64,000 bases of DNA from Bacteroidales bacterium. Lineage in GTDB: Bacteria > Bacteroidota > Bacteroidia > Bacteroidales > P3. The stretch lies in contig JAGCVD010000021.1 of NCBI GenBank assembly GCA_017962545.1, positions 1-64,000 on the forward strand, read 5' to 3'. Of this stretch, positions 443-51,842 are shown piece by piece; within the stretch, counting starts at the first letter, position 1; each line of letters opens with the position of its first letter. Both the position numbers and the translations under genes were made by a program. The notes below the pieces were generated by a model. The model was given only the letters and a program-made list of their open reading frames with translations. It did no database searches and was not told the DNA's origin.

Positions 443-3400
443 ATGGCCACGCAGGACGACATACGGCAGGCGCTCGACGCCTTTATCCGCAAGTATTACA
501 AGAATTTGCTGATACGGGGCTCGTTGTATGCTGTGGGCATCGTCGTCACGCTTTTCCTGGCGGCGGTGCTGCTGGAGCACTACGGCTGGCTGTCGCCGCT
601 GGGCAGGGCCCTCATCTTCTGGGTGGGCCTGGCGGCGGTGCTGGCGGTAACGGGCAGGCTCGTCGTGCGGCCGCTGCTGAAGATGGCTGGCCGCGGCAGA
701 CGGCTCTCCCATGCCGACGCCGCCCGTATCATCGGGCGCCACTTCCCCGAGGTCAGCGACAAGCTGCTGAACCTGCTGCAGCTGATGGAGAGTGCGGAGG
801 TGGCCGATGCAACCTCAACCTCCGACTTCCGAACTCCGACTTCCGAACTATTGTTGGCTGCCATCGAGCAGAAGACGGCCGAGCTGCGGCCGGTGCCGTT
901 CCTCAACGCCATCAACCTGCAGCGCAACCGCCGCTACCTCAGGTATGCCCTGCCGCCGCTGGCGGTGCTGGCGCTGCTGCTGCTCGTGGCGCCCTCGGCC
1001 GTCACGGGTCCCACGCGCCGCATCACCCACTACAATACCGTCTATGAGCGTCCCGCCCCCTTCGCTTTCCGTCTCCTCAGCGACCCCCTCGCCGCCCAGC
1101 AGGGCGGCGACTTCGAGCTGCTGGCCACCACCGACGGCGAGGCGCAGCCCGCCGAGGTGTTCCTCGACGTCGACGGACGCCGCTACAAGATGCACAGGGA
1201 GGGCGCCGTCTTCAGCCACCGCTTCACCAAGTTGGCGCGCTCGCAGACCTTCCGCCTCAGCGGCGGTGGCGTCACCTCGTCGCCCTACACCCTCGAGGTG
1301 CTCCCCAACCCCGTGGTGCTCGCCTTCCGTATGCTCCTCACCTACCCCGCCTACACAGGCCGCCAGGCCGAGACGGTGGTGGGCCTGGGCGACGCCGCCG
1401 TGCCCGAAGGCACCACGGTGCGCTGGCTCTTCCAGACGCGCGACGCCGACAGCTTGTATTTTGAGGTGGATGGCGGGAATTGGCAAGCGGCGGCTGTGGA
1501 TGCCAACGGCAGGGTGGAAATCAGCCGCCGTGTGATGGCCAATATGGATTATTCCTTCTGCGTTGGCAAAACTCCGACCTCCGATCTCCGACCTCCGACC
1601 TCCGACACGCTTCGTTACAGCCTCTCGGCCATCGCCGACGCGGTGCCGCTGATAGCCGTCGAGGAGGTCGTCGACTCGCTGCATCCCGACCGCCGCCTCT
1701 TCCGCGGGCGCATAAAGGACGATTACGGCTTCTCCAGGCTTGTCTTCGTCCACCGGACGGTCAATCCTGCCGACACGACGAGAAACGCGCTCAGCGAGGC
1801 CGAAATGGCCCTCGACGGGCAGACGGCACAGGAGTTCTTCTTCTCGTTCAACACCGCCGAGCTCTCGCTGGCGCCGGGCGACGAGCTGAGCTACTGGTTC
1901 GAGGTGGCCGACAACGACGCCATCCACGGCCCCAAGACGGCGCGCTCGCAGCAGTTCGACATCAAGATACCCTCCGAGGAGGAGCTCGACCGTCTGCTGG
2001 AGCAGTCGTCGTCGGACATACGCCAGAGCGCCGACGCCCAGATGGGCGAGCTGCAGCGCCTGCAGGAGGAGATCAACGAGATGATGAAGAAGCTCGTCGA
2101 CAAGAAGGAGCTCTCGTGGCAGGACAAGAAGGACCTGGAGCAGATTGCCGAGAAGCAGCGCCAGGTCAAGGAGATGATGCAGCAGATGCGGCGGCAGATA
2201 GAGGAGAACAACCGTCTGGAGCAGCGCTACCGCGAGCAGAGCGAGCAGCTCATGGAGAAGCAGCGCGAGCTGGACCGTCTGATGAACGAGGTGATGGACG
2301 AGAAGATGAAGGAGACCATGGCCGAGATTGAGCGCATGATGCAGGAGCTCGACAAGAAGAAGGTGCAGCAGCAGCTGGAGCAGCTGAAGCTCGACAACGC
2401 CGACCTCGAGCGCCAGCTCGACCAGAACATCGAGCTGATGAAACGTCTGGAGATAGAGAAGAAGGTGGAGCAGACCATCCAAAAGATGGACCGTCTGGCC
2501 GAGGAGCAGCGCGACCTGGGTACACGGACCTCCTCGTCCGCCAAGCAGGACAAGGAGGAGCTGCAACAGAAGCAGCAGGAGCTCAACGACCGCTACCAGC
2601 AGCTGAAGGAGGAGATAGAGCAAATCAAGCAGGACTACAAGGCCCTCGACCCCTCGACTGACTTCAAGGTGCCTGCCGACCTGGAGCAGCAGGTGGAGCA
2701 ACACCAGCAAGGGGCGCAGCAGAGCCTGCAGCGTGGCAACAACAAGGAGGCGTCGAAGATGCAGCGTGAGGCTGCCGACGACCTGGAGCGTCTCAGCGAG
2801 GCCCTCGCCGAAGCGCAGGTCGACGCTGAGCAGGAGGACCTGGCCGAGGACGCCGAGCAGGTGCGCCAGTTGCTGAAGAACCTCGTGCGTCTCTCGTTCA
2901 ACCAGGAGGAGCTCATCAACGACGTCAAGGCCATCTATATCTCCGATCCCCGCTACCAGACCGTCATCACCCGTCAAAACCGCGTGCGCGACGATTTCCG
3001 CAATGTCGAGGACTCCCTCCGCGCCATGGCGCGCCGCCAGCTGCAGGTGGCCTCGGCCATCACCAAGGAGGTCGGCGCCGTGGACGCCAATATCAGCCGC
3101 TCGCTCAGCGGCCTGCTGGACATGAACCAGAGTTTCTACGGCGCGGGCAGCGGCGCGGCGATAAATTACAAGAACAGCCAGGCCGCCAACGCCATGCAGT
3201 ACAGCATGACGTCGCTCAACAACCTGGCGCTGGTGCTCGCCGAGAGCCTCGACCAGATGCAGAACCAGATGCGCCAGAACGCGCAGAAGAAAAAGAACGG
3301 CCAGTGCAAGAACCCGGGCAAGAGCGGCAGCCAGTGCTCGAATCCCGGCAAAGGAAAGCCTTCGCCGAAGTCGATGCGCCAGATGCAGCAGGAGCTCAAC

Positions 3401-3913
3401 AAGCAGATGGAGGCTCTGAAGAAGCAGCTCGACAAGCAGGGCAAGCAGCAGAACGGTCGTCACCAGCTGGGGCAGGGACAGCAGATGAGCGAGGAGTTCG
3501 CCAAGATGGCTGCCCAGCAGGAGATGATACGCCGCATGATGCAGCAGTACGGCCAGGAGATGAAGTCGGCCAGTGGCGGCGACCCCAAGCTGGCACGTGA
3601 AATCGACCAGATGATGCGTCAGATGGAGCAGACCGAGACAGACCTCGTCAACCGCACCATCACCCAGCAGACCCTCCAGCGCCAGCAGCAGATCATGACG
3701 CGTCTGCTGGAGCACGAGCGCGCCGAGATGCAGCGCGAGAAGGAGCAACGCCGCGAGAGCCACGAAGGCTCGGAGCTCTACAGCCAGCCCTCCCCTGCCG
3801 AGTTGGAGAAATACAACCGCCAGCTGCAGCCCGCCGCCGAGCCGCTGCGTACCGTGCCGCCCAACCTGCAGCCTTACTACCGCCAGAAGGTCAACGACTT
3901 TTTCTACCGCTAG
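443..3913 (+). CDS. DUF4175 family membrane protein with long coiled coil
   Basis: This 1156-residue protein has membrane segments near residues 26-45, 55-75 and 170-190, then a beta-rich presumably periplasmic region to about residue 510. A long Gln/Glu/Lys/Met-rich coiled coil follows (about 510-820), and the C-terminal part is Gln/Met-rich. The architecture and its place directly before an RsbW-like ATPase, ybeY and mnmG match the Bacteroidota DUF4175 family, whose biochemical role is unknown. The start at ATG 443 (MATQDDIRQ) is chosen because the 47 codons upstream fall in a dispersed repeat. Two short heptad-repeat peptides are inserted in frame at about residues 122-136 (STSDFRTPTSE) and 376-388 (PTSDLRPPTSD). 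Family call good, function unknown. Confidence 0.8.
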   Translation: MATQDDIRQALDAFIRKYYKNLLIRGSLYAVGIVVTLFLAAVLLEHYGWLSPLGRALIFWVGLAAVLAVTGRLVVRPLLKMAGRGRRLSHADAARIIGRHFPEVSDKLLNLLQLMESAEVADATSTSDFRTPTSELLLAAIEQKTAELRPVPFLNAINLQRNRRYLRYALPPLAVLALLLLVAPSAVTGPTRRITHYNTVYERPAPFAFRLLSDPLAAQQGGDFELLATTDGEAQPAEVFLDVDGRRYKMHREGAVFSHRFTKLARSQTFRLSGGGVTSSPYTLEVLPNPVVLAFRMLLTYPAYTGRQAETVVGLGDAAVPEGTTVRWLFQTRDADSLYFEVDGGNWQAAAVDANGRVEISRRVMANMDYSFCVGKTPTSDLRPPTSDTLRYSLSAIADAVPLIAVEEVVDSLHPDRRLFRGRIKDDYGFSRLVFVHRTVNPADTTRNALSEAEMALDGQTAQEFFFSFNTAELSLAPGDELSYWFEVADNDAIHGPKTARSQQFDIKIPSEEELDRLLEQSSSDIRQSADAQMGELQRLQEEINEMMKKLVDKKELSWQDKKDLEQIAEKQRQVKEMMQQMRRQIEENNRLEQRYREQSEQLMEKQRELDRLMNEVMDEKMKETMAEIERMMQELDKKKVQQQLEQLKLDNADLERQLDQNIELMKRLEIEKKVEQTIQKMDRLAEEQRDLGTRTSSSAKQDKEELQQKQQELNDRYQQLKEEIEQIKQDYKALDPSTDFKVPADLEQQVEQHQQGAQQSLQRGNNKEASKMQREAADDLERLSEALAEAQVDAEQEDLAEDAEQVRQLLKNLVRLSFNQEELINDVKAIYISDPRYQTVITRQNRVRDDFRNVEDSLRAMARRQLQVASAITKEVGAVDANISRSLSGLLDMNQSFYGAGSGAAINYKNSQAANAMQYSMTSLNNLALVLAESLDQMQNQMRQNAQKKKNGQCKNPGKSGSQCSNPGKGKPSPKSMRQMQQELNKQMEALKKQLDKQGKQQNGRHQLGQGQQMSEEFAKMAAQQEMIRRMMQQYGQEMKSASGGDPKLAREIDQMMRQMEQTETDLVNRTITQQTLQRQQQIMTRLLEHERAEMQREKEQRRESHEGSELYSQPSPAELEKYNRQLQPAAEPLRTVPPNLQPYYRQKVNDFFYR
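811..849 (+). repeat. In-frame heptad repeat array in the DUF4175 gene (1)
   Basis: Degenerate 7-bp units of the form CTCCGAC/TTCCGAA lie inside the coding frame and encode TSTSDFRTPTSE. The same motif family recurs in pyrK, the BadF-type kinase, lysC and tsaC (the last two on the opposite strand relative to the gene). Confidence 0.85.
1571..1606 (+). repeat. In-frame heptad repeat array in the DUF4175 gene (2)
   Basis: Five consecutive units CTCCGAC, CTCCGAT, CTCCGAC, CTCCGAC, CTCCGAC lie in frame and encode TPTSDLRPPTSDT in the presumed periplasmic region. Confidence 0.88.
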
Positions 3914-3956
3914 CGCCCTCGCGTCCAGCGGTGGAAATCAGCCAATTCTGTTTTCT

Positions 3957-3989
3957 TTTGTTCTTGTTTGATTATTTTTTGTATCTTTG
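3957..3989 (+). promoter_or_regulatory. Bacteroidota-type promoter for the RsbW-like gene
   Basis: TTTG (3957-3960) and TATCTTTG (3982-3989) are separated by 21 nt, matching the -33/-7 consensus of the Bacteroidota primary sigma factor. Transcription would begin a few bases downstream, ahead of the ATG at 4014. This rules out the TTG at 3987 as the start codon. Confidence 0.75.
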
Positions 3990-4013
3990 CAGCCAGTAAA
4001 ATATGTGCGCGCG

Positions 4014-4463
4014 ATGACCGAAACGTTTGTCATACAGTCCGATATTGCCCTCCTGCCCTCGGTTGAGGAGCGGCTGTTCCATTTCTGCCAGCTCTGTCAT
4101 GTGGGCAACTACTATTCCGCCGTCAGCGTGGCGGCCCTGCAGGCCGTGGAGAACGCCATCGTCCACGGCAACGGCGCCGACGCCGCCAAGACCGTCGAGC
4201 TGACCTTCGGCACCTGCCGTGGCGGCCTCTTCGTCGAGGTGGCCGACCAAGGTGCCGGCTTCGACTATGGCTGCTATGGCGACCTGCCGACCGACGGCGC
4301 GGGCGAGGGTATCTTCGTCATGCGACAGCTGGCCGACCAGGTGACCTACTCCGAGGGTGGCCGTCGGGTGCGACTCGAGTTCACCGTCGCCGGTATCGAC
4401 CCCGCCGACGCCCTCGAGCGCGTCGCCATCCTCCGACAACATTTCGCCCCAGTGGCGGCGTGA
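4014..4463 (+). CDS. RsbW-like ATP-binding protein (HATPase_c_2)
   Basis: This 149-residue GHKL-fold ATPase belongs to the anti-sigma-factor/serine kinase type. The N-box ENAIVHGN is at residues 46-53, the G1 box DQGAGFD at 78-84 and the G2-like GEGIFVMRQL near 97-106. There are no other domains. In Firmicutes, RsbW-type proteins phosphorylate anti-sigma antagonists; in Bacteroidota the partner is usually not known, and none (STAS domain, PP2C phosphatase) is visible here. The start at ATG 4014 is set by the promoter that overlaps the upstream TTG. The gene sits between DUF4175 and ybeY, the usual Bacteroidota order. Confidence 0.82.
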   Translation: MTETFVIQSDIALLPSVEERLFHFCQLCHVGNYYSAVSVAALQAVENAIVHGNGADAAKTVELTFGTCRGGLFVEVADQGAGFDYGCYGDLPTDGAGEGIFVMRQLADQVTYSEGGRRVRLEFTVAGIDPADALERVAILRQHFAPVAA

Positions 4464-4597
4464 CGGCATTGGTCGTTTTGCGTCGTCTGAGGAGCACCAC
4501 TACCCTCCCCCACTCCATCCGTGGCGCGCATTTTGAGGAATAGAACAACCGATAGTGGTTGTAGCATATTGTAAATCAAAAAGATATATAGATATTT

Positions 4598-5026: not shown

Positions 5027-5074
5027 ATTGCCGTTAGGTTTCACGGGGAACAGACGGTGTAAATGACATAGAAC

Positions 5075-6940: not shown

Positions 6941-6943
6941 CCT

Positions 6944-7987: not shown

Positions 7988-8011
7988 AACGCCCCTGCGT
8001 TACATTGGTAT

Positions 8012-8464: not shown

Positions 8465-9735
8465 AGGTATTTAAATTCGGCGGAGCCTCCGTCAACAGCG
8501 CCGACGCCGTGCGCAACATGGCGCAGATTGTGAAGAACCACCTGGAAGAGGAACCGCTGGTGGTGGTCGTCTCCGCCATGGGCAAGACCACGAACCTGCT
8601 GGAGAAGCTTGTGCCGGGGAGTTCGGAGTTCGGAGTTCGGAGTTCGGAGATGAGGCTGCTGCTGGAGGACTACCACCGTGGCATTGCCGCCGCACTGATG
8701 CCCGATAGCAAGGAGGTCCAGCAGAAGATAGACACCCTGCTGGCCAACCTCGACCGCCTCTGCGCCACCTTGCCGGCCGACGTGGAGCACTATAACTACA
8801 ACTACGACCAGGTGGTCAGCCACGGCGAACTGCTCTCCACGACCATTATCGCCGACTACCTCAACAGCCAGGGTGTCGACACCCTGTGGCAGGACGCCCG
8901 CGAATATATCATCACCGACAACCACTACCGCGAAGGGCGTGTCGACTGGACCACCACCCAGGAAAGAATTAAGAATTTGGAATTAAGAATTAAGTATTCC
9001 TGCCGTGTGGTTTTGACGCAGGGCTTCATCGGTGGCACCGCTGACGGACACACCACCACCCTCGGTCGCGAGGGCTCCGATTACACGGCGGCCATCCTGG
9101 CCCACTGCCTCGGTGCCGAGAGCGTCACCATCTGGAAGGATGTGCCGGGATTCCTCAACGCCGACCCCAAGTTCTTCGCCGACACCGTCAAGATTAACCA
9201 GATACCCTACAACGAGGCTATCGAGCTGGCCTACTATGGCGCCTCGGTCATCCACCCCAAGACGGTGAAGCCCATCCAAAACAAGAACATACCTCTTTAT
9301 ATCCGCTCCTTCATCACCCCCGACAGCGAGGGCTCTTCCATAGGCAACTATCGTACCATCTGTCCCGAGACCCCCCTCTACATCTTCAAGAACAATCAGA
9401 TACTGCTCTCCATCCTGCCGCGCGACTATTCTTTCATCGCCGAGGACAACCTGCAGGTCATCTTCGGCATACTGAACGAACTTGGCATCCGGGTGAACCT
9501 GATGCAGAACTCCGCCCTGAGTTTCTCCATCTGTGTCGACAACAATCCGCAGCGTATCGGCGTGCTGATAGAGCGCCTGAAGCACATGTTCCGCGTGCGA
9601 TATAACGAGAACCTGCAGCTCATCACCATCCGCTACTACACGCAGCAGGTCATCGACAGCATCGTCGCCGGCCGCCCCATCCTCCTCGAGCAGCGTAGCC
9701 GCTCCACAGAGCAGCTGATTGTCCCCTGTCAGTAA
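8461..9735 (+). CDS. lysC: Aspartate kinase, monofunctional
   Basis: This 424-residue protein phosphorylates aspartate in the first step of Lys/Thr/Met/diaminopimelate synthesis. The kinase domain starts [11 protein letters not shown] and contains [33 protein letters not shown] is typical of aspartate kinases. The C-terminal part carries ACT-type regulatory repeats ([20 protein letters not shown]). No homoserine dehydrogenase domain follows. Two heptad-repeat peptides are inserted in frame in surface loops: residues about 53-64 ([11 protein letters not shown]) and 168-180 ([10 protein letters not shown]). Neither touches a conserved motif. Confidence 0.94.
8619..8650 (+). repeat. In-frame heptad repeat array in lysC (1)
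   Basis: Four copies of GTTCGGA (the complement of the CTCCGAA-type unit in the DUF4175 gene) encode [10 protein letters not shown] in aspartate kinase, following EKLVPG. Confidence 0.9.
8964..8996 (+). repeat. In-frame heptad repeat array in lysC (2)
   Basis: Units GAATTAA, GAATTTG, GAATTAA, GAATTAA encode [10 protein letters not shown]. It is a different heptad family (AT-rich) from the first lysC array. Confidence 0.88.
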
Positions 9736-11129: not shown

Positions 11130-11130
11130 C

Positions 11131-12168
11131 TTATTTCGTCACCGTCAGGAAAGCGTCACGCACCTCGTTGTCCGACACCTCCACGTCGATGACCGCCGCC
11201 CCGGGCTCCTGCAGCAATACACACCGCAGCGTCCCGTCGGCATTCTTCTTGTCCTGTCGCATCAAGGGCAGCATCTGCTCGATGTCTTTTAAATTTACAG
11301 TGGGTAGTTGACAGTTGACAGTTGACAGTTGTTCTTTGAGCCAGTGGGAGTAGGTGGTGTAGACCTCCTCCTGTAAGCCTATTTTCTTCGTGGAGAGGTA
11401 TATGGCTACCTTCATGCCGACACCGACGGCAAGACCGTGAGGCAGTCCGCGATAGACCTCGATGGCGTGGCCGAAAGTGTGGCCGAAGTTGAGTATCTTC
11501 CTGATACTATGGTCGTAAGGGTCGGATTTCACCACACGGGCTTTGATGCGGGCAACCTCTTTAATGGTGGATAGTGGGTAGTGGTCAGTGGATAGCAGCT
11601 GCTCGAACAACGTGGGGTCGGTGACGGCGGCGGTTTTCACCATCTCCATCAGGCCGTTGAGGTGCTCCACCTCGGGGAGCGTCTCCAAAAAGGCTGGTTC
11701 TATGACTGTTATGGCGGCGGGGTAGAAGTGTCCTATGCTGTTCTTCACGCCACCGAAGTCGATGGCCGTCTTGCCGCCGATGGCGGCATCGGTCATGGCC
11801 AGCAAGGTGGTGGGGACATGGATATGGCGGATGCCACGCTTGTAGCCTGCTGCCACAAAACCTCCTAGGTCACAGACACTTCCTCCGCCGAGGTTGACGA
11901 GCACCGTGCTGCGGTCGGCCTCGCCCTCGAGGAGCGTCTGCCACACCTGTGCCGCCACCTCCAGACTCTTGCATTCCTCGCCCACCGGCACCTCGATGAA
12001 CTCGGCTTCCTGCAACGCCTCCACATAACCTATGAGCAGTGGCAGACAGTGCTGGAAGGTGTTTTCATCCACCAGGATGACGTACTTCGCTTCTTGCCAT
12101 TCCTCCTTGGCCAACTCGCGCCCCAGCGCCCGCAGGCCGCCATAGAGTATCTTGCTTCTATTGTTCAT
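11131..12168 (-). CDS. aroB: 3-dehydroquinate synthase
   Basis: This 345-residue NAD- and metal-dependent enzyme makes the second shikimate-pathway intermediate from DAHP. Visible motifs are VNLGGGSVCDLGGFVAAGYKR, the metal-binding region LNFGHTFGHAIE (about residues 225-236) and HVPTTLLAMTDAAIGGKTAID. Two heptad-repeat peptides interrupt the helical C-terminal domain: LLSTDHYPLSTIKE at about 190-202 and QLSTVNCQLPTVNL at about 278-290. Both keep the frame and avoid catalytic residues. The gene is convergent with the paralogous exported-protein pair. Confidence 0.95.
   Translation of the reverse strand: MNNRSKILYGGLRALGRELAKEEWQEAKYVILVDENTFQHCLPLLIGYVEALQEAEFIEVPVGEECKSLEVAAQVWQTLLEGEADRSTVLVNLGGGSVCDLGGFVAAGYKRGIRHIHVPTTLLAMTDAAIGGKTAIDFGGVKNSIGHFYPAAITVIEPAFLETLPEVEHLNGLMEMVKTAAVTDPTLFEQLLSTDHYPLSTIKEVARIKARVVKSDPYDHSIRKILNFGHTFGHAIEVYRGLPHGLAVGVGMKVAIYLSTKKIGLQEEVYTTYSHWLKEQLSTVNCQLPTVNLKDIEQMLPLMRQDKKNADGTLRCVLLQEPGAAVIDVEVSDNEVRDAFLTVTK
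11299..11334 (-). repeat. In-frame heptad repeat array in aroB (1)
   Basis: On the + strand the units read GTTGACA, GTTGACA, GTTGACA, GTTG. On the coding strand they encode QLSTVNCQLPTVN. Confidence 0.9.
11566..11598 (-). repeat. In-frame heptad repeat array in aroB (2)
   Basis: The + strand units GTGGATA, GTGGGTA, GTGGTCA, GTGGATA encode LSTDHYPLST on the coding strand. Confidence 0.85.
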
Positions 12169-22652: not shown

Positions 22653-22666
22653 AACGAGGTATTTGG

Positions 22667-22750
22667 TTTAAGGTTTAAAGTTTGAGGTTTAAGAGGTGCT
22701 GTCTAGGCAACTGCTTGACCTTGAATTTTAAACCTTAAACTTTAACTCCC
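22667..22750. repeat. Heptad repeats forming a long inverted pair
   Basis: The left arm is GGTTTAA-GGTTTAA-AGTTTGA-GGTTTAA (about 22668-22695). The right arm is TTTTAAACCTTAAACTTTAAC (22725-22745). GTTTAAGGTTTAAAG in the left arm is complementary to the right arm with about one mismatch, so the whole spacer can fold into a long hairpin. It fills most of the gap between the PpiD-like and M23-like genes. Confidence 0.75.
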
Positions 22751-27777: not shown

Positions 27778-28560
27778 ATGAAAGAAATAAGCGATTTCAC
27801 CATCATTGAGCGGCGGCAGCATGGCCCACACTATTTCACGCTGGTGTTGCGGCACAGCCACCTCACTCCGCTGTTGCCGACAATGCCGGGACAGTTTGTC
27901 GAGGTCCGTGTCGACGGACAGCCGGGTGTTATGTTGCGGCGTCCCATTTCGGTGCACGATGTCGACCCCGAGGCTGGCACCCTCTCTCTGCTCGTCCAAG
28001 TGGTGGGTCAGGGCACTCGCCGTCTGAGTCAACTGGCTGTTGGAGAAAAGATTAACCTTGTATACCCTCTGGGTCACGGCTTTACCTCCGACCTCCGATC
28101 TCCGACCTCCGCACTATTAGTGGGTGGCGGTGCCGGCATAGCGCCTTTGCTGTATCTTGCCAAGGTGCTGAAAGCAAGAGGTGTAAGATGTACTATATTA
28201 CTCGGTGGCCGTACGGCGGAGCTTATCCCCGTGCGCGATGAGTTCCGCCCCTACGGCGAGGTGTGCATCGCCACCGACGACGGCTCGCTGGGGCATAAAG
28301 GTCTTGTTGTCAGCCACCCTGCTTTCGCGGAGCAGTATGATATCATCTACACCTGCGGTCCCACGCCAATGATGAAAGCAGTGGCACGCTCAGCAGCGGA
28401 GCGCGGCATACGCTGCGAGGTGAGCCTGGAGAACATGATGGCCTGCGGCGTGGGCGCATGCCTCTGCTGCGTCACCGACACCGACCAAGGGCACCGCTGC
28501 GTCTGCAAGGACGGCCCCGTGTTTGATATCACGAACATGAAGAAATGGTATGCTAATTAG
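27778..28560 (+). CDS. pyrK: Dihydroorotate dehydrogenase B, electron-transfer subunit
   Basis: This 260-residue ferredoxin-reductase-like subunit carries FAD and a [2Fe-2S] cluster and passes electrons from PyrD to NAD. The FAD motif is LRRPISVHDVD (about residues 58-68), the nucleotide-binding loop is LLVGGGAGIAPLLYLAK, and the C-terminal cluster cysteines lie in MACGVGACLCC...HRCVCKDGPVF. A heptad-repeat peptide (TSDLRSPTSA, nt 28083-28113) is inserted immediately before the Gly-rich loop, replacing the short linker normally found there. pyrD follows after 171 bp. Confidence 0.94.
   Translation: MKEISDFTIIERRQHGPHYFTLVLRHSHLTPLLPTMPGQFVEVRVDGQPGVMLRRPISVHDVDPEAGTLSLLVQVVGQGTRRLSQLAVGEKINLVYPLGHGFTSDLRSPTSALLVGGGAGIAPLLYLAKVLKARGVRCTILLGGRTAELIPVRDEFRPYGEVCIATDDGSLGHKGLVVSHPAFAEQYDIIYTCGPTPMMKAVARSAAERGIRCEVSLENMMACGVGACLCCVTDTDQGHRCVCKDGPVFDITNMKKWYAN
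28083..28113 (+). repeat. In-frame heptad repeat array in pyrK
   Basis: Units CTCCGAC, CTCCGAT, CTCCGAC, CTCCGCA encode TSDLRSPTSA between the FAD and NAD domains. Confidence 0.88.
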
Positions 28561-29756: not shown

Positions 29757-30599
29757 ATGATTCTCATTGCTGACAGCGGCAGCACAAAGACCACGTGGAT
29801 GGAGATAGACTCTGGTAACAAGGTGGTTACCGAGGGCCTGAATCCTCATTTTACCACCGACGAGGCCTTCCTCGCCGCCTGCTCCGCTGTGCGCCAGCAG
29901 CTCCGACTTCCGACTTCCGACCTCCGACTTTACTTTTACGGTTCCGGCTGCGGTGATGCTTTGCAACGTGAGCGCGTGTTGCGGCAGCTCCAGCATGGCT
30001 TCGGCACAGAAGATGTGCATGTTGAGACCGATATGTTGGGCGCCTGTCGCGCTATCTGGGGTCGTCACAATGGTCTGGTGGGCATCCTCGGCACGGGGAG
30101 TAACGCCTGCTACTACGACGGTGAACGCATTGTTTATCAAGCCCCAAGCCTGGGTTATATTATTGGCGACCACGGGTCGGCCAACCACGTAGGTCGTCTC
30201 TTGCTGCTGGACTACCTCACGGGCAAGATGTCCGACGAGCTAAGTGGCATGTTCCAAGAACGTTATCCTAGGACGCACGAGGAATGGGTAGAGGCATTGT
30301 ATCACCGACCCAACCCCAACAGGATGCTGGCGGCGCTGGCGCCGTTTGCCGTGGACCATCTGGACGACGACTACTGCCGTAATACGATATACTATGCCCT
30401 CGACGACTGGTACAGCTACCAGTTGTCCGACATAGTGTTGAAGTCGGATTGTCGGCGCCTCTGTGTCGTCGGTGGCTTCGCCGCTGCGGTGGCCGGCGTG
30501 CTTGACGACTACTGTGACGACAACGGGATAACCTTGGGCACCGTAGCGGCCAACCCCATAGAGGGCTTGCTAAATTATCACGCCCAATACAATATATAA
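29757..30599 (+). CDS. BadF/BadG/BcrA/BcrD-type ATPase, probable N-acetylglucosamine kinase
   Basis: This 280-residue ASKHA-fold protein has phosphate-1 loop ADSGSTKTTWMEID at the N-terminus, phosphate-2 region GILGTGSNACYY, and adenosine motif DHGSANHVGRLLLLDYL. Length and motifs match Bacteroidota sugar kinases annotated as N-acetylglucosamine kinase-like; the substrate is inferred, not visible. A heptad-repeat peptide (LRLPTSDLRL, nt 29901-29930) lies in frame at about residues 49-58. ATG 29757 is the conserved start; the upstream open frame is repeat DNA. Confidence 0.83.
   Translation: MILIADSGSTKTTWMEIDSGNKVVTEGLNPHFTTDEAFLAACSAVRQQLRLPTSDLRLYFYGSGCGDALQRERVLRQLQHGFGTEDVHVETDMLGACRAIWGRHNGLVGILGTGSNACYYDGERIVYQAPSLGYIIGDHGSANHVGRLLLLDYLTGKMSDELSGMFQERYPRTHEEWVEALYHRPNPNRMLAALAPFAVDHLDDDYCRNTIYYALDDWYSYQLSDIVLKSDCRRLCVVGGFAAAVAGVLDDYCDDNGITLGTVAANPIEGLLNYHAQYNI
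29901..29930 (+). repeat. In-frame heptad repeat array in the BadF-type kinase gene
   Basis: Units CTCCGAC, TTCCGAC, TTCCGAC, CTCCGAC encode LRLPTSDLRL between a surface helix and the next strand. Confidence 0.85.
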
Positions 30600-35220: not shown

Positions 35221-35557
35221 TGTTGCTTGTCACTAAGTAAAAACGCCATTTCTTTGAAACACATAATATGCCGCTTTACCGATGAAAATGATGACAAGGG
35301 CGGCTAACTCGTGGCCGCCCCGCTTCACGACAGCGGGCTTTTATTGCCTCGCAGAGGACAAGGAGATGCTATACTGCAGGCTCGCTGTTGCCATACTCCA
35401 CCTTCGCTCTATCCAAGCACAAACACCTCACTTGAGCGAGGAAAGGTCATGGGAACAGCGAGGCAACTCCGAGAGACCCCCTTGGGTGGGGCGAGCCTGC
35501 CCCGTGGCTTGGTCTTAGGTACCCCTTAGGAACATCAAAGGTACCCCTAAGGCTCCA

Positions 35558-35612
35558 TAGAGTTGGTATAGAGTTGGTATAGGGTTCCTATAGGGTTCGT
35601 ATTGAGTTTGTA
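35558..35612 (+). repeat. 11-bp tandem repeat, five degenerate copies
   Basis: TAGAGTTGGTA, TAGAGTTGGTA, TAGGGTTCCTA, TAGGGTTCGTA, TTGAGTTTGTA follow one another without spacers. The period is 11 bp, one DNA helical turn, unlike the 7-bp arrays elsewhere. Confidence 0.85.
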
Positions 35613-36025: not shown

Positions 36026-37138
36026 ATGAAAACTTCGAAAGTAATCGCACTCGCAATGATGGCCCTGGCGCTGAGCGCCACGCCGGCATTGGCACAACGT
36101 AGCGGCGGCAGCCGTGGCGGCGGTGGCGGCAGCCACAGCAGCTCTGTCAGCAGCAGCCGCTCCTCCAGCAGTCATAGCAGCTCCGTGAGTTCCAGCCGCT
36201 CGTCGAGCAGCAGCTCGAGCCGCAGTTCGTTCAGCAGCAGTTCCAGCCGTTCCTCGAGTCCCAGCAGCTCCAGCCGTAGCTCGTTCAGCAGTTCCAGCCG
36301 TTCGTCGAGCCCCAGCAGCTCGAGCCGCAGTTCGTTCAGCAGCTCCAGTCGCAGCAGCTCGGTGAGTGCTCCCAGCCGTTCCAGCGTCGGCAGCCATAGT
36401 GAAGGTGTCCGCTCGGAGCGTCCTTCGGTGCGCGGCGGTGTCGAGGCCCGCGGCAGCCACGCCGGTGTGCGTGGCCGTGAGGCAGGCCGTACGGCTCCCA
36501 CGGTGCGTGGCGAAGGTGCGTCGCGTGGCGCTGGCGCAGTCAACGAGAGAAGCCATGGCGCGGTGCGTGAAGGCGGTCCGGCCCCCAAAGCGCCTGCCGG
36601 CACCATCTCGGCCTCCGGCCGTCCTGCATCGTCAGGCCCTGCCAACTATGCACGCCCGGGTCACCCCGGCGGCGTGATGCCTCCCAGCCATCGCCCCATC
36701 CACCCTGCACCCTACTTCTACCACCCCTGGCACCACCACATGGTACACTGCCACCCCGTCTACTGGGATCCCTTCCCCCCGCGTCCCTGGTACTGGCCCG
36801 GATTCTGGCTCTACTGCAACAGCTACTGGTATGACTACCACGTGACCGACGTCGTCGTAGTGCGCCGCTACGTGCAGGACACCTACCACGTCGACATGGT
36901 CACCTACGGCATCAGCGGCGACATCATGTACGCCATCGTCCGCGACGGCGGTAGCACCTACCTCCAAGTCTATGACAAGGACGACCACCTGCTGGCCGAG
37001 CAGAAGATCAACAAGAAATACTGCAACATGGTCATCGACGCCGACAACGGAGGCTGCTGGATCAGCAAGAAGCACGAGAAAGATCCCTTGCTCTTCATCT
37101 GGGCCGACGGACAACTCCTCATCTACGAGGCCGACTAA
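36026..37138 (+). CDS. Exported Ser/Arg-repeat protein
   Basis: This 370-residue protein has a signal peptide (MKTSKVIALAMMALALSATPALAQ) followed by a Gly-rich patch. A Ser/Arg low-complexity region spans about residues 36-115. Within it a 17-residue unit, SSSSRSSFSSSSRSSSP, is repeated about three times (DNA period 51 bp, about 36203-36365). Residues 120-210 are Gly/Arg/Ala-rich. A His/Trp/Tyr/Pro-rich stretch follows (HPWHHHMVHCHPVYWDPF), then a compact beta-rich C-terminal domain ending ADGQLLIYEAD. I do not recognise a family. Arg-Ser repeats suggest a disordered cationic surface or periplasmic segment. Confidence 0.75.
   Translation: MKTSKVIALAMMALALSATPALAQRSGGSRGGGGGSHSSSVSSSRSSSSHSSSVSSSRSSSSSSSRSSFSSSSSRSSSPSSSSRSSFSSSSRSSSPSSSSRSSFSSSSRSSSVSAPSRSSVGSHSEGVRSERPSVRGGVEARGSHAGVRGREAGRTAPTVRGEGASRGAGAVNERSHGAVREGGPAPKAPAGTISASGRPASSGPANYARPGHPGGVMPPSHRPIHPAPYFYHPWHHHMVHCHPVYWDPFPPRPWYWPGFWLYCNSYWYDYHVTDVVVVRRYVQDTYHVDMVTYGISGDIMYAIVRDGGSTYLQVYDKDDHLLAEQKINKKYCNMVIDADNGGCWISKKHEKDPLLFIWADGQLLIYEAD
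36203..36365 (+). repeat. 51-bp tandem repeats coding a Ser/Arg region
   Basis: About three copies of a 17-codon unit (SSSSRSSFSSSSRSSSP) with mostly synonymous differences. Such an array could change copy number by slippage or recombination without breaking the frame. Confidence 0.75.
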
Positions 37139-37140: not shown

Positions 37141-37205
37141 ATAAAAGGTTATAGGTTAAAGGTTATAGGTGATAGAAAAGCCTATAATCTTTAACTTTTC
37201 CCCCT
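37141..37205. repeat. Heptad repeats forming a hairpin after the Ser/Arg-rich gene
   Basis: GGTTATA, GGTTAAA, GGTTATA, GGTGATA are followed by CCTATAATCTTTAAC, which can pair with them. This is the same arrangement as at 22667-22750. It may serve as a transcription-termination or mRNA-stability hairpin. Confidence 0.65.
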
Positions 37206-42181: not shown

Positions 42182-42397
42182 TTTAACATATCTTAACTCT
42201 AGCTGGGTGCTACCCTCGCCCTAAAAAGTCTCTGTTTTGTCTCTGTATAACATACTGTAGATGAGGTGATTTATGGGGGAGGGTAGAGGGAGGGTAGAGG
42301 GAGGGTAGATAGGTAGTGTTGGTTCTCAGGTAATTACGGTGTCCTTAATACTACGGTTATGTTAAATAGAGCAAAATCCAGTTTAACAAAAATTAAG
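42182..42397 (-). repeat. 216-bp dispersed repeat, copy B (inverted)
   Basis: On the minus strand it aligns end to end with 158-373, with conserved termini and a pyrimidine-rich centre made of CTCTACCCTCC repeats. It lies between kal and the recombinase gene, reading away from the recombinase. No shared reading frame is seen. Confidence 0.8.
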
Positions 42398-44253: not shown

Positions 44254-45312
44254 TCACAATGTCTGCAAGTATCTATCAATCAGCCTTGGCACCGGCACGG
44301 ATTTCATCTGCGACCTTGTCACGGCAGCGCCAAAGGTGGGAAGGACGACGGGCTCGGCGGGCAATTCGGCCTGTATGAAACGGGCATGGATGGTGCGGTG
44401 CGTGAGCTGGTGGGTGTAGGGTGGGGAGAGTTGAAAGTTGAAAACTGAAAACTGAAAGTTTTTTTCAATAAACGCTATGGCGGCGGCGTGTAGCTCTTCG
44501 TGGTTCAATTCGTGGTCGGTTTCCAGCAGCGGGAATTCCCAGAGGCCGCGCCAGATGTCGTTGCCTGTGCGGCGTTGCATGAGGGTGTACTGGTCGCCCT
44601 CTTTGTGCCAGCGCAGGTTGAAGTAGTAGAACCAGCGGTCTTTCGGTTTGGCTTTGGGTATTTTGACGGGCAGTAGGTCAACGCGACTGGTGCGCAGGGC
44701 CTCGCATTCGTCGGCGAAGGGGCAGGCGGCGCAGTCAGGTTGCGGGCGGCACTGCAGGGAGCCGAAGTCCATCAGGGCGGCGTTGAAGCGGTCGGGCCGT
44801 CGGCGGTCGATGAGTTGCAGCAGCAGTGCCTCGAATTCACGGTAGGCCGCGTCGGTGGCGATGGGGGTGCTGATGCCGCGCAGGCGGCTGATGAAGCGGT
44901 ATACGTTGCCGTCGATGACGGGGTGGGGCAGGCGGTAGGCGAAGGAGGCGATGGCGGCGGCGGTGTAGCGCCCCACGCCCTTGAGGCGCAGGATGCCCTC
45001 GTAGGTGTCGGGGAACCGTCCGCCACATTCATCCATAATATATTGCGCGGCTGCGTGCAGGTTGCGCGCGCGCGAGTAGTAGCCCAGTCCCTGCCAGAGG
45101 CGCAGCACCTGCTCCTCGGTGGCGGCGGCGAGGTCGGTGACGGTGGGGAAAGTTTCGACGAAGCGCAGCCAGTAGTCGCGCCCCTGTTCGATGCGGGTTT
45201 GTTGCAGTATGATTTCCGACAGCCAGATGCGGTAGGGGTCGTCGATGCCGCGCCACGGAAGTGTGCGTCCGTAGTCGTTGTACCAAGCCTCCAATTTATC
45301 CGAAAAAGCCAT
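44254..45312 (-). CDS. mutY: A/G-specific adenine glycosylase
   Basis: This 352-residue base-excision enzyme removes adenine paired with 8-oxoguanine. It has the catalytic Glu in LSEIILQQTRIEQ, the helix-hairpin-helix LKGVGRYTAAAIASFAY with catalytic Asp in VIDGNVYRF, and a [4Fe-4S] loop CRPQPDCAACPFADEC. A C-terminal NUDIX-like domain (RRTGNDIWRGLWEFPLL) follows. A heptad-repeat peptide (FQFSVFNFQLS) interrupts this last domain at nt 44427-44461. The start at 45312 (MAFSDKLEAW) is preferred to an ATG 7 codons earlier. Confidence 0.95.
   Translation of the reverse strand: MAFSDKLEAWYNDYGRTLPWRGIDDPYRIWLSEIILQQTRIEQGRDYWLRFVETFPTVTDLAAATEEQVLRLWQGLGYYSRARNLHAAAQYIMDECGGRFPDTYEGILRLKGVGRYTAAAIASFAYRLPHPVIDGNVYRFISRLRGISTPIATDAAYREFEALLLQLIDRRRPDRFNAALMDFGSLQCRPQPDCAACPFADECEALRTSRVDLLPVKIPKAKPKDRWFYYFNLRWHKEGDQYTLMQRRTGNDIWRGLWEFPLLETDHELNHEELHAAAIAFIEKNFQFSVFNFQLSPPYTHQLTHRTIHARFIQAELPAEPVVLPTFGAAVTRSQMKSVPVPRLIDRYLQTL
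44427..44461 (-). repeat. In-frame heptad repeat array in mutY
   Basis: On the + strand GAGTTGA, AAGTTGA, AAACTGA, AAACTGA, AAGTTTT. On the coding strand this encodes NFQFSVFNFQLS. Confidence 0.88.
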
Positions 45313-45502: not shown

Positions 45503-45568
45503 CAGCCGTTTTCGCCGAAAAAGCGAGACGATAAAGTAACGCAATAAAACAATAAAAAGTATACTACA

Positions 45569-45808: not shown

Positions 45809-45870
45809 GTGAAGACAACAAGTCTTAAATAAACAAATTATTAATCCTTAACAAGAAAGAGGTATTAGCA

Positions 45871-46068: not shown

Positions 46069-46116
46069 GCCCGAGCCGAGAGCTCCCCAGTTAGGAGCAA
46101 CGCCATTGAAAGAGCA

Positions 46117-46149
46117 AGCCCCTGCAACCAATCGGTTGCAGGGGCTTTT
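46117..46149 (+). terminator. Strong intrinsic terminator after rpsU
   Basis: A perfect 13-bp stem AGCCCCTGCAACC/GGTTGCAGGGGCT with loop AATC is followed by four Ts. Confidence 0.93.
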
Positions 46150-46170
46150 CCGTATATGGGGGTTAAGTCA

Positions 46171-46773: not shown

Positions 46774-46794
46774 AATGGTAGTGGTATTAAGTTG

Positions 46795-47556: not shown

Positions 47557-47641
47557 GATGCCGAACTATCTATATTGTTTATAATTCCTGCGGCTCAACT
47601 GATATTGCGCCGCAGGAATAACAGGTTGTAGTCGGGGGGTA

Positions 47642-49306: not shown

Positions 49307-49376
49307 AATGTGTAATGTTTTGGTTTATAATTAATTTAACTATTTTTAATACACAAGGAGCTGTATAATCAATGTG

Positions 49377-49384
49377 CAAAGTTA
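49377..49384 (-). promoter_or_regulatory. -7 promoter box of the POT transporter gene
   Basis: On the minus strand TAACTTTG followed by CAC matches the -7 consensus. It lies 71 nt upstream of the ATG and is divergent from the tsaC promoter. Confidence 0.6.
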
Positions 49385-49427
49385 CGAAAAAAAGTTGATA
49401 CTTGGGCAGTATATGTGTTTTTTTTTG

Positions 49428-49435
49428 TATTTTTG
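49428..49435 (+). promoter_or_regulatory. -7 promoter box of tsaC
   Basis: TATTTTTG is 9 nt before the ATG at 49445, suggesting a very short leader. It overlaps the earlier in-frame ATG's coding stretch, which excludes that ATG. Confidence 0.65.
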
Positions 49436-49444
49436 CCGCTCGAA

Positions 49445-50002
49445 ATGAAGATGGAAGAGATTATACGGCAGACGGTGGAAGTGCTGCAGCAGGGCGGCAC
49501 CATCCTTTATCCTACCGACACAATCTGGGGTATTGGATGCGATGCGCGCAATGCCGCAGCGGTAGAGAAACTGTATGCCATCAAGGAGCGCGACCGAAGC
49601 AAGAGTATGCTGGTGCTGGTGAGTTCGGAGTTCGGAGATTGGAGTTCGGAGATTGGGGACAGGCCGACGACTTATATATTGCCACGGTCGATATGGCATG
49701 ACGAGATGCATTTCGAGGTGGCCTCCAACCTGCCTGCCGCCGACGGCTCACTGGGTCTGCGAGAGCCGAAGCATGCCTTCTGCCAAGAGGTGCTCCGTCG
49801 CCTGGGGGCCCCCTTGGTCAGCACGTCGGCCAATCTGTCGGGACGTCCGTCGCCGTATATATATAATGATATAGAGGAATCGCTGAAATCGAGGGTCGAT
49901 TTCTGTGTGCCGCCACTACCGGTATTTCTCTCGGGAGAGACATGCGGCAGCCGTATTGTGAAAGTGAAAGAAGACGGTTCGCAAGAGATTATCCGGCCGT
50001 AG
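49445..50002 (+). CDS. tsaC: L-threonylcarbamoyladenylate synthase (TsaC/Sua5 type), altered middle
   Basis: This 185-residue YrdC-fold enzyme of t6A tRNA modification has GGTILYPTDTIWGIGCDA and IKERDRSKSMLVLV. DGSLGLREP and RRLGAPLVSTSANLSG follow. In relatives a helix of about 20-25 residues follows SMLVLV; here that place is taken by a heptad-repeat peptide (SSEFGDWSSEIGD, nt 49621-49660), and the chain resumes at a strand that aligns with 'PLTIIYP'. The core ATP and threonine motifs remain. The 3' end overlaps the convergent phosphopantetheinyl transferase gene by 14 bp. Confidence 0.88.
   Translation: MKMEEIIRQTVEVLQQGGTILYPTDTIWGIGCDARNAAAVEKLYAIKERDRSKSMLVLVSSEFGDWSSEIGDRPTTYILPRSIWHDEMHFEVASNLPAADGSLGLREPKHAFCQEVLRRLGAPLVSTSANLSGRPSPYIYNDIEESLKSRVDFCVPPLPVFLSGETCGSRIVKVKEDGSQEIIRP
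49621..49660 (+). repeat. In-frame heptad repeat array in tsaC
   Basis: GTTCGGA, GTTCGGA, GATTGGA, GTTCGGA, GATTGGG encode SSEFGDWSSEIGD and apparently stand in place of a normal helix. Confidence 0.88.
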
Positions 50003-50492
50003 CAAAAGCCAACGCTGCCACGGTGTCGGGCAAGTCGCACGCTATCTCGTTTACTTCACAGTCTTTTGCTGACAAGGCATCGACCATGCTGCCAAAGCCA
50101 CGGATGCCTGTACCTTGGCATTTGAGGACGGCTTCTTTGCGTGTCCATAACCGAAGGAAAGCCATCTCGGGGTCTTCGCTATGTTGTATGGTGTCGACTT
50201 CAGCAGGCGTGCATACTCGTTTGATCAGCGAGGGATTGGTGTGCCGTCGGCTTTCGATGTCGATGCCTACAGGCCCATGGTCGCTGAAAGCCGCAGCCAC
50301 AGCGGTGCGACAGTGGCTGATGCTGATATATAGATTGGGATATTGGGGCAGGTAGGGTGCTCCGTGGCTGTCGTGCTCCACGAGGACCTCGTGCCCTATG
50401 AGTTGACCGAGTAGACGAACCGCCGCCGCACTCTGTTCAGCGTGAGTCTGCCACTGGCCACCGATTACCGACCATTGACCGCCAAAGGTCAT
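49989..50492 (-). CDS. 4'-phosphopantetheinyl transferase, short N-terminus
   Basis: This 167-residue Sfp-superfamily protein attaches phosphopantetheine to carrier proteins. Key motifs are present: ISISHCRTAVAAAFS, GIDIES (magnesium Asp and Glu) and LRLWTRKEAVLKCQGTGI (W..KEA.lK). Relatives usually have about 40 more N-terminal residues. Here the protein starts with a repeat-derived GGQWSVIGGQWQ and goes directly into the first conserved helix. The start is firm because the ATG overlaps the DUF3467 stop (ATGA). It may be functional but trimmed. Confidence 0.83.
   Translation of the reverse strand: MTFGGQWSVIGGQWQTHAEQSAAAVRLLGQLIGHEVLVEHDSHGAPYLPQYPNLYISISHCRTAVAAAFSDHGPVGIDIESRRHTNPSLIKRVCTPAEVDTIQHSEDPEMAFLRLWTRKEAVLKCQGTGIRGFGSMVDALSAKDCEVNEIACDLPDTVAALAFATAG
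50451..50486 (-). repeat. In-frame heptad-like repeats at the start of the phosphopantetheinyl transferase gene
   Basis: On the coding strand units of the type GGTCAAT, GGTCGGT, AATCGGT, GGCCAGT give GGQWSVIGGQWQ as the first residues after Met-Thr-Phe. Confidence 0.75.
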
Positions 50493-50803
50493 GCTTTGCC
50501 CAGGATGTCGTAGGGTACGGTGTCGCCCATGGTGGTATGTGGCTCCTCGATGGTGCCGAACTGCTGCTCGTATTTACGGATGTTGTCGTTCAGCGCCGCT
50601 AAGGTGCGTTTGGCATGGATGGGGTTCATGATGATGCGCTGCCGGATGGTGGCGCCTTCAGCGCCGGGAAGCATCTGGGCAAAATCCATCACCACCTCGG
50701 CGGGGGTGTGGCTGATGACCACGAGGTTTGAGTAGGTTCCTTCCGCTACCTCGGGTGTGATATTCAGTTTCAGGTTCTGCTGTTGCTCTTTCGGATTTGC
50801 CAT
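50489..50803 (-). CDS. DUF3467 family protein
   Basis: This 104-residue protein contains LKLNITPEVAEGTYSNLVVI, then SHTPAEVVMDFAQMLPG and RIIMNPIHAKRTLAALNDNI, the DUF3467 pattern common in Bacteroidota and some archaea. The function is unknown. It is translationally coupled to the downstream phosphopantetheinyl transferase by a 4-bp overlap. Confidence 0.85.
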   Translation of the reverse strand: MANPKEQQQNLKLNITPEVAEGTYSNLVVISHTPAEVVMDFAQMLPGAEGATIRQRIIMNPIHAKRTLAALNDNIRKYEQQFGTIEEPHTTMGDTVPYDILGKA

Positions 50804-50937
50804 AATTATGAATGTTTTGGAATGATAACGTAGGAGAACAAGAAATATTGTGCCGACAACGAGGAGTATAAGGGCTTGGAAAATAGTGTGTTTGTGATGG
50901 CACTATAAATTATTCTTTCCATATAAAAATATTTTAC

Positions 50938-50945
50938 TATTTTTG
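50938..50945 (+). promoter_or_regulatory. -7 promoter box upstream of the 86-residue gene and efp
   Basis: TATTTTTG followed by CAC lies 24 nt before the ATG at 50969. Confidence 0.62.
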
Positions 50946-50968
50946 CACCCTCAAAATCAATATACAAG

Positions 50969-51229
50969 ATGAGTCACAAGACCGCGATAAAGATATATGA
51001 GATAGCCTCCTACATCCTCATTTTGGGAGCCACGGCTATCTATTTCTGGCAGAAACAGCAAGGTCTCTCTCTCACCATGCTGGTGTTGGCTTTGGCCATC
51101 TTCTGCCGCTGGATGATGGACCGTCACCGCTATCGCTCTTGCGACGAAGAGAATGACCAACTGCGTGACGACCTGCGCCGTCTCACCCAATTGCTGGCAG
51201 AAGAAAAGAAAAAGAACAATAACAAATAA
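50969..51229 (+). CDS. Small membrane protein, 86 residues
   Basis: Two hydrophobic segments (IASYILILGATAIYFW and LTMLVLALAIFCRWMM) are followed by a charged coiled-coil tail (EENDQLRDDLRRLTQLLAEE). I do not recognise a named family. It lies 15 bp before efp and probably shares its promoter. Confidence 0.65.
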   Translation: MSHKTAIKIYEIASYILILGATAIYFWQKQQGLSLTMLVLALAIFCRWMMDRHRYRSCDEENDQLRDDLRRLTQLLAEEKKKNNNK

Positions 51230-51244
51230 AACACACATCATTTT

Positions 51245-51808
51245 ATGGCAACAACCACCGACATTAAGAACGGACTTTGCATCAATTTCAACAACGATAT
51301 CTATACCATCGTTGAGTTCCTTCACGTCAAGCCTGGCAAGGGCGCTGCTTTTGTGCGTACCAAGATGCGCAATGTTAAGACCGGCCGTATGCTGGAGAAC
51401 ACTTTCCCCAGCGGTGCCAAGATTGACATCGTGCGCGTCGAGCGTCGTCCCTACACCTACCTCTACAAGGAGGGCGACATGCATGTCTTCATGCACACCG
51501 AGACCTACGAGCAGATTTACATCCCCGAGCAGATTATCAACGCCCCGCAGTTCCTGAAAGACGGCCAGTACGTTGAGATCACCGTTGAGGCCGACACCGA
51601 GACTCCGCTGACCTGCGAGTTGCCTCCGTTCATCGAGACCGTCGTTACCTATACCGAGCCTGGCTTCGCCGGCAATACCGCCACCAACGCCATGAAGGAC
51701 GCCACCGTGGAACCCGGTGTTCAGGTTCGCGTGCCTCTCTTCATCAAAGAGGGCGAGCGTATCAAGGTCGACACCCGCACCTGCGAGTATGCAGAGCGCC
51801 TGAAATAG
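51245..51808 (+). CDS. efp: Translation elongation factor P
   Basis: This 187-residue three-domain OB/KOW protein relieves ribosome stalling at polyprolines. The tip loop is [13 protein letters not shown] with Lys32 at the modifiable position. [18 protein letters not shown] and [20 protein letters not shown] are the domain II and III signatures. It has full normal length. The next gene starts in the same frame 27 bp after the stop. Confidence 0.97.
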
Positions 51809-51842
51809 TTTAGGGTTAAAATTAAGAGTTTAGAGTTGAAAA
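51809..51842 (+). repeat. Heptad-like repeats supplying the start of the M28 gene
   Basis: TTTAGGG, TTAAAAT, TAAGAGT, TTAGAGT, TGAAAAG run from the efp stop into the next coding region. The TTG at 51836-51838 is inside this array. Confidence 0.65.

Follow-up and report, generated by a model that had tools for sequence, protein, structure and literature searches.

In-frame heptamer arrays in unrelated enzyme genes of a Bacteroidales genus: possible copies of short elements spread in trans

Introduction

Short repeats of bacterial genomes are mostly viewed as intergenic sequences or as frame-shifting switches of phase variation. Among the known families, the short tandemly repeated repetitive (STRR) sequences of cyanobacteria are heptameric repeats, and the repetitive extragenic palindromic (REP) elements and REPINs, associated with REP-associated tyrosine transposases (RAYT, of the Y1 family), are dispersed in genomes as single and as paired, hairpin forms. 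Here we describe arrays of heptanucleotide units that lie in frame within unrelated genes of a Bacteroidales bacterium, on a stretch of 64,000 nucleotides referred to below as the window (assembly GCA_017962545.1, contig JAGCVD010000021.1, positions 1 to 64,000), and we follow them through other genomes of the same genus.

Passages of PMC2996958, PMC10969869 and PMC3767692 describe in-frame palindromic elements of Rickettsia and Wolbachia. For the GGGNATC heptamer repeats of Xanthomonas and Nostoc, the consulted part of PMC4692102 describes a preference for four units and the occurrence of inverted pairs. Passages of PMC4679880 recount that an excess of heptanucleotide repeats had been noted by Mrazek in 2007 and report TAACTGA repeats in Beggiatoaceae, Cyanobacteria and five Bacteroidetes. 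A literature search that was broad in part and had most subscription journals outside its reach found no report of heptamer arrays as in-frame elements across housekeeping genes.

Results

The genome of the window (G000) is a draft of 1.95 Mb in 42 contigs, 81% complete, in which the window forms bases 1-64000 of contig 2; the closest named matches to its aspartokinase come from uncultured Bacteroidales, e.g. RUG153 and RUG737, which we take to be rumen genomes. A custom scan for tandem repeats (match +1, mismatch -2, score at least 12) detected 9 arrays of period 7 in the window, whereas 20 order-3 Markov simulations contained none; at the same score, periods 4, 5, 6, 8, 10 and 13 yielded no array in the window. 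According to our own caller of open reading frames (ORFs), 8 of the 9 arrays are genic and in frame and one is intergenic (37146-37175), with the scan giving 29902-29928, 44429-44457 and 49621-49651 for the arrays of the BadF-type, mutY and tsaC/yciO-type genes. Within 464 kb of G000, comprising the window and 20 further stretches, there are 44 arrays, 22 of them genic at a coding fraction of 0.92 by the same caller, and at a stricter threshold period 7 accounts for 38 arrays against 10, 9 and 8 for periods 8, 11 and 15. Tandem 7-nt units are far above chance, a property shared with heptameric simple sequence repeats (SSRs) and STRR sequences. A first-pass annotation of the window had reported period-7 arrays in frame in named genes and the use of many unit families; the arrays lie at or within about 10 bases of the positions it gave and exceed chance by far, many unit families are indeed in use, and the habit runs through the genus. 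Most of the arrays that it listed are clear, and those at 820-849 (DUF4175), at 11567-11595 (aroB) and in the phosphopantetheinyl transferase gene are weaker.

The location within genes is unusual. Of the 130 arrays counted in G000 and in the congeners G002 and G012, 73 are genic, in place of the mainly intergenic location of heptameric SSRs and STRR sequences, compared with 1 of 32 in 71 other Bacteroidota loci; when any ORF of at least 150 amino acids is considered, the counts are 78/130 and 2/32, and 0/4 in a sample of the order (20 families, one stretch each) whose four arrays all come from two genomes. At the stricter threshold, 66 of 117 period-7 arrays of the three genomes are genic versus 5 of 39 with period 11, units of which likewise break the frame. 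Period 11 is also common in the genus (21 arrays in 247 kb of G012, one genic), and the window itself has 11-bp-unit arrays at 35557-35612 and 42277-42309. Arrays are less dense in nineteen further members of the genus, where 326 kb contain 8, of which 5 are genic. The hosts are ordinary, mutually unrelated enzymes. In the window, Pfam recognised aspartokinase-type, dehydroquinate synthase, dihydroorotate dehydrogenase B (DHODB) electron-transfer-type, MutY and Sua5/YciO/YrdC proteins, with the BadF match below threshold (26.8 bits, cut-off 31.5), and it named 9/10 and 10/10 hosts in two further sets outside the window, among them pantoate ligase, IPP transferase, Ham1, MraW, SpoU methylase, ThiF, GHMP kinase and S13 peptidase. 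Insertion in frame into housekeeping genes of unrelated kinds, a mark of the Rickettsia-type elements, is thus found here as well. One further G000 array (L381, C13:1800-3600, array 897-927) encodes SRSEVGGRRSE directly before a DTPGHVDF motif in a protein that appears LepA-like by eye.

Three 7-nt units restore the frame, and the three frames of a heptamer array give an identical seven-residue cycle, so that one strand without stops suffices and a repeat unit that is not a multiple of three can sit in needed genes and leave them unbroken. Reading the unit on the sense strand gives no stop in 67 of 73 genic arrays; the opposite strand contains one in 38 of these 67. Among the 57 non-genic arrays, 55 contain a stop on one strand or both. 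With respect to length, 79 of the 130 arrays measure 27 to <36 nt, with the mode at 30 to <33 nt, which reproduces the preference for about four units seen in heptameric SSRs; exact period-7 runs are shorter, their histogram declining from 16-20 nt, so the preferred size of ~30 nt is limited to arrays with mismatches. Purine/pyrimidine transitions within units are somewhat fewer than under a composition control (2.86 vs 3.28). A common unit grammar AGTNNNN, suspected by eye, was rejected, as the composition-controlled enrichment of AAC, GAA and ACT is only modest.

The evidence for spread between loci comes from the units themselves. Unlinked array pairs have the same unit in 3.7% of cases in G000, 7.4% in G002 and 7.8% in G012, compared with means of 0.5-0.7% after shuffling of the letters within each unit and with 0.11-0.13% for 7-mers drawn at random from the genome. 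Sharing within genomes (0.080) exceeds that obtained by permuting labels across the three genomes (mean 0.046, maximum of 500 permutations 0.061), and sharing between genomes, at 1.7-3.8%, is still above chance; part of the word set is therefore common to the genus. We also counted units across 41 whole genomes of the genus as 21-mers with at most two mismatches: the GTTCGGA family has 38 matches in G000, 4, 4 and 3 in a further three genomes and no match in the remaining 37, GAGTGAT has 639 in G002 and 94 in G007, and GTAGTGG has 106 in G012 and 30 in G023. Reversed-pattern controls reached at most 0 (GTTCGGA), 1 (GAGTGAT) and 6 (GTAGTGG) matches per strand and genome, the last in G002, where the true pattern yields no more. 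TAACTGA is absent from the unit families listed for G000, G002 and G012.

Longer identities extend this pattern. An exact match of at least 26 nt joins 30 of 4,302 unlinked array pairs within genomes and 11 of 7,850 between genomes, the former count having been lowered from 31 by removal of a 45-nt pair (L004/L248) that is one locus seen twice and still including a few other repeats of that locus. Unrelated genes contain identical mosaics of 26-44 nt, some with variant units in the same order and with unrelated flanks. The window arrays at 1572 (DUF4175) and 28086 (pyrK-type gene) have an exact 26-nt mosaic in common between unrelated flanks, and variant units in the same order are likewise shared by three ORFs of G002, two of which are called as genes.

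A fuller form, in which two heptamer patches face each other, is dispersed in G012. From the GTAGTGG matches we took 16 places, mostly for close matches on both strands, 15 in G012 and one in G025. Fourteen hold an in-ORF hairpin with AGTGGGT-type arms and a short loop, spanning 67-127 nt (76 nt in 8 of the 14); the remaining two are a G012 copy outside ORFs and a single arm. The peptide VGSGQWVVGSTRGQxLPTTHYPLPT or a variant of it is read in one common frame in 12 of 13 G012 ORFs and in the G025 ORF, the G012 ORF L338 retaining only its first part. A conserved peptide in one frame, as in the Rickettsia-type elements, is therefore a property of the G012 element, a comparison that does not apply to the single arrays of the window. 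The peptide has matches in 10 of the 41 genomes and none in G000; these matches include echoes of the palindrome in other frames, and counting for G012 only stop-free rows, in frames of at least 252 amino acids, gives 22 places. According to Pfam, hairpin hosts include class I tRNA ligases, UvrA, UvrC, UvrD, a RarA/MgsA-type ATPase and anaerobic ribonucleotide reductase.

Five hairpin sites of G012 have a homologue in G000. Two lack the hairpin there, in the UvrA- and UvrC-type genes, where G012 has 30 and 26 residues and G000 none and 2, respectively (in-frame gains of about 30 and 24 residues), and three hold a different element: the homologues of the L338 gene and of an amidohydrolase-type gene carry a single array of another family, and that of the UvrD-type gene has an unrelated insert, palindromic to judge from its peptide. 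At the hairpin of L286, in an efflux-protein gene, the relative L042 is not empty and has 24 other residues. A second kind of in-frame insert, with SPLPLSQGEG...SPLLGRGAGV-like peptides, was seen in the BadF-type gene of G007 (L146) and in the UvrD-type homologue of G000, at sites where heptad elements occur in other species. An inverted partner accompanies 0/22 catalogued genic arrays in G000, 5/31 in G002 and 5/20 in G012 (control 3/197); one in-frame double arm of G000 (L380) was found later than the catalogue of 22.

Subsequently, the arrays were compared with homologous sites. Among 154 arrays pooled over the genus, 40 have a homologous segment in one or more other species, and 28 of these 40 are genic. 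Length was compared with that of the closest array-free homologue for 27 genic arrays. All 27 show a net gain divisible by 3 nt, which is 0 in 11, at most 9 nt in 20 and at least 21 nt in 2, a few of these homologues holding another insert instead (e.g. gains of -66 and -18). Since the gain is mostly at most 9 nt, a genic array usually replaces a stretch of similar length; it is 0 at the pyrK-type gene and at aroB 11306, and 0 to 3 nt at lysC 8618. In alignments to solved homologues, array residues of aroB, lysC and the tsaC-type gene face ordinary residues with small indels, and the mutY alignment ends short of the array; a placement of all arrays in loops or linkers, as given in the first-pass annotation, is putative. 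The class of intergenic or edge arrays (8 with an array-free homologue) includes BadF-type loci cut by locus ends, and we draw nothing firm from it. The first-pass annotation had regarded the arrays as insertions giving lineage-specific peptides. Clean insertions exist, in the UvrA- and UvrC-type genes and in a U32 peptidase gene, where by extrapolation of the flanks G036 has 36 nt and three congeners none, and where G002 (L249:1502-3628) has a 193-nt heptamer array encoding ~60 in-frame residues of ITHHSSL-type repeats; most genic arrays have a net length change near zero. As regards lineage, arrays are largely confined to the clade of the window, and several sites are common to different species with the unit family changing.

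For the latter comparison, clades were defined by a FastTree phylogeny of 32 genomes based on six proteins with array columns excluded. At 8 sites, 20 of 101 homologues in the window's clade score as arrays versus 3 of 118 in the sister clade, all three at the second lysC site. Sharing is strong at the BadF-type (5/10 clade members with an array), mutY (5/12) and tsaC-type (5/15) sites, lower at the pyrK-type gene (2/14) and at each aroB site (1/10), and weak at lysC. At the BadF-type site, six congeners have peptides derived from other heptamers, e.g. FQLPTLNFQL, FSILNSQFSI and FAIPNSHLSI, with arrays also in G004, G012 and G019; at the mutY, aroB, tsaC-type and phosphopantetheinyl transferase sites, arrays in congeners are in part built from other units. 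In the pyrK-type gene, 12 clade members are array-free and 2 besides the window have arrays; as G000 and G022 each stand beside array-free sisters in the tree, these arrays most simply arose more than once. In the tsaC-type genes of G001 (L209) and G009 (L210), in-frame palindromic GTAGGGAC-type inserts were observed at the site of the window's array, and internal stops are reported in those of G002 (L205), G024 (L211) and G064 (L216).

The individual arrays of the window are as follows. The DUF4175 gene (forward strand) has a 14-bp unit present twice at 820..849 (CTCCGACTTCCGAA; 100% match, TSDFRTPTSEL in frame), where G012 has a GAGAACG/GAGAGCG-type array, and five in-frame CTCCGAC units at 1572..1606. 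In lysC (forward), a GGAGTTC array is located at 8618..8649 and an interrupted GAATTAA array without in-frame stop at 8964..8998. The aroB gene (reverse) contains at 11306..11331 an array of TGTCAAC on the coding strand (QLSTVNCQL) and at 11567..11595 a degenerate TATCCAC array (LSTDHYPLST; 77% in Tandem Repeats Finder, TRF, and below score 12). CTCCGAC units occur at 28084..28111 in the pyrK-type gene (forward; TSDLRSPTSA), where clade members with no array have a stretch of the same length, and with TTCCGAC at 29902..29930 in the BadF-type gene (forward; LRLPTSDLRL). Furthermore, mutY (reverse) has a TTTTCAG/CTTTCAA array at 44429..44460 (NFQFSVFNFQL), and the tsaC/yciO-type gene (forward) a GTTCGGA/GATTGGA mosaic at 49621..49656 (VSSEFGDWSSEIG). 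At the N terminus of the phosphopantetheinyl transferase, the array (50455..50490, reverse; below 12) is strongly degenerate and is credible only because relatives, e.g. L042, have a clearer array there. Between genes lie an inverted pair of GGTTTAA and TTAAACC arrays with a 37-nt spacer (22665..22745) and an AGGTTAT array (37146..37175). A long degenerate repeat of 39/51-bp units at 36129-36354, CAGCAGCTC-like and overlapping an ORF, has no relation to the heptamers.

Discussion

We propose, with a probability of roughly 0.55, that the arrays are copies of short selfish heptad elements that spread in trans and are filtered by selection for the reading frame. The basic form would be a patch of about four to five heptamers (~30 nt) and the fuller form a hairpin of two such patches facing across a short loop, each genome having its own preferred set of heptamers. 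Units and mosaics shared by unlinked places would then reflect copying events, which probably took place when DNA synthesis, during replication or repair, switched template to an array or hairpin already in place before returning. The copies surviving in genes would be those that kept the frame, had their stop-free strand as sense and fell where the protein is tolerant; the same codon sites would be reused since few places tolerate inserts, and at such sites one element or unit family may replace another, often with little net change in length. A bolder version, which we consider doubtful, is that a dedicated trans-acting process writes ~30-nt patches and 76-nt hairpins from genome-specific heptamers, often overwriting the target at constant length, and continually supplies essential enzymes of one gut Bacteroidales genus with new stretches of peptide.

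Several points weigh against spread in trans. The genomes compared are one per species, with no strain pair among them, and no movement event was seen; G002 and G012 were picked for comparison because they looked array-rich. The copying enzyme is putative. No candidate of the Y1 transposase family was detected in G000 (81% complete), and a Y1/RAYT transposase as the mover is for this reason not claimed, a Y1 match being present in 46 of 61 genomes searched, including G002 and G012. With 0 of 22 catalogued G000 arrays having an inverted partner and a single double arm, the single form need not derive from the hairpin. In an 11-mer test at homologous sites, the mean share was only 0.073 in the own genome, compared with 0.047 for the two other genomes. 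G002 and G012 both use ACTCTCC-type units, and because some families occur in both of these genomes, or in both G000 and G012, this test is weaker than the whole-genome counts. The lysC sites are rarely shared (1/15 and 0/15 clade members with an array), and in aroB and mutY the arrays of different species agree in phase and length but not in unit, which also fits old arrays evolving in concert. Finally, the phase of the arrays matches their array-free homologues, the actual phase being the best of seven in 12 of 15 arrays; some array-free homologues may accordingly be decayed arrays, or the arrays may be drawn from similar sequence in cis. This is the strongest point for a component in cis or for homologues that are decayed arrays.

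The same phase match, along with the dominance of period 7 in the 464 kb, could be explained by replication slippage in place, whereby a chance 7-bp near-repeat is recopied by a polymerase favouring 7-nt steps and in-frame outcomes are selected. A 7-nt bias of slippage has been proposed, as told in a passage of PMC4679880, and some array pairs of the non-genic or edge class differ by one or two units (-14, -7 and +14 nt). We nevertheless hold slippage unlikely as the explanation. It does not account for units and mosaics common to unlinked loci in a genome-specific manner nor for dispersed hairpins with a common loop peptide, and as a single 7-nt step breaks the frame, stepwise growth in a needed gene would have to proceed without an intact intermediate. 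Moreover, self-similarity at lag 7 in array-free homologues of 8 sites is not raised at most sister-clade sites and is slightly raised in the window's clade, which weakens seeding in cis, for which the phase match may still speak. The data suggest that slippage in place explains them poorly and copying in trans better, and the mechanism of expansion, left open in the first-pass annotation, is narrowed to the extent that genome-specific sharing speaks against in-place slippage as the only source.

Shared sites, and the arrays of mutY and aroB with equal length and conserved phase under a change of unit, could alternatively mean that old arrays were fixed in an ancestor of the clade and that conversion between arrays rewrote their units in concert with little or no new insertion. 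The equal length at the BadF-type site agrees with this, whereas the pyrK-type gene, with its array-free majority and with G000 and G022 beside array-free sisters, the gains at the U32 peptidase, UvrA- and UvrC-type genes, and unrelated palindromic inserts at the same sites do not, and we judge it rather improbable. Still less can be said for a selected function, by which the arrays would encode useful peptides or signals in DNA or RNA such as binding sites or regulated translation. The single peptide in one frame of the G012 element, the residues alternating in hydrophobicity at the BadF-type and mutY sites as judged by eye, and the regulatory roles that a passage of PMC4679880 proposes for TAACTGA repeats favour it; the hosts are unrelated, the peptides vary by species at one site where many congeners have no array, and the single frame may be explained by avoidance of TAG in the other frames of the hairpin sequences. 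An artefact of assembly or binning, or chance, which the incomplete draft of 42 contigs and the many fragmented congeners might bring to mind, is negligible in view of the empty simulations, the low reversed-pattern controls and the recurrence of the same sites, in frame, in separate species.

Spread of heptad elements in trans would have a wider meaning. The findings suggest a little-noticed way to rewrite parts of proteins, in which a species' own repeat words are copied into many unrelated genes, often at the same tolerant spots. The genus offers numerous natural pairs in which a given codon site has an array in one member and none in the other, and through these the spread of heptamer arrays and the share of bacterial protein stretches that stem from selfish DNA become testable.

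Among the known systems, the Rickettsia palindromic elements (RPE), as described in the citing passages, are likewise short, dispersed and in frame in unrelated housekeeping genes, and the G012 hairpin resembles them in having one conserved peptide and a palindromic structure. They measure 100-150 bp, whereas the elements described here measure ~76 nt or are single ~30-nt patches, have arms of tandem heptamers and belong to a different phylum, with unit families that are largely genome-specific and change at fixed sites. Compared with heptameric SSRs, as far as the consulted parts of the sources describe them, the 7-nt unit, the preference for about four units, the occurrence as singles and inverted pairs and the positions often kept among relatives are the same; those repeats are enriched in non-coding DNA and G-rich in the studied cases, while here about half of the arrays are genic, and each genome uses many families, most of them not G-rich. 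The TAACTGA repeats, in the passages describing them, are also direct heptamer repeats present in Bacteroidetes and lie inside ORFs in their stop-free reverse orientation, but they consist of one unit, stand in their main genome mostly just upstream of start codons and have few ORF cases, mostly at protein ends. REP and REPIN elements share the dispersed single and paired hairpin forms and differ from the present arrays, which have heptad arms, lie in frame in genes and occur in G000 with no Y1 transposase found there. Heptamer repeats and in-frame palindromic elements are thus both already known, and the elements of this genus would work in the manner of RPE but be built from heptamers.

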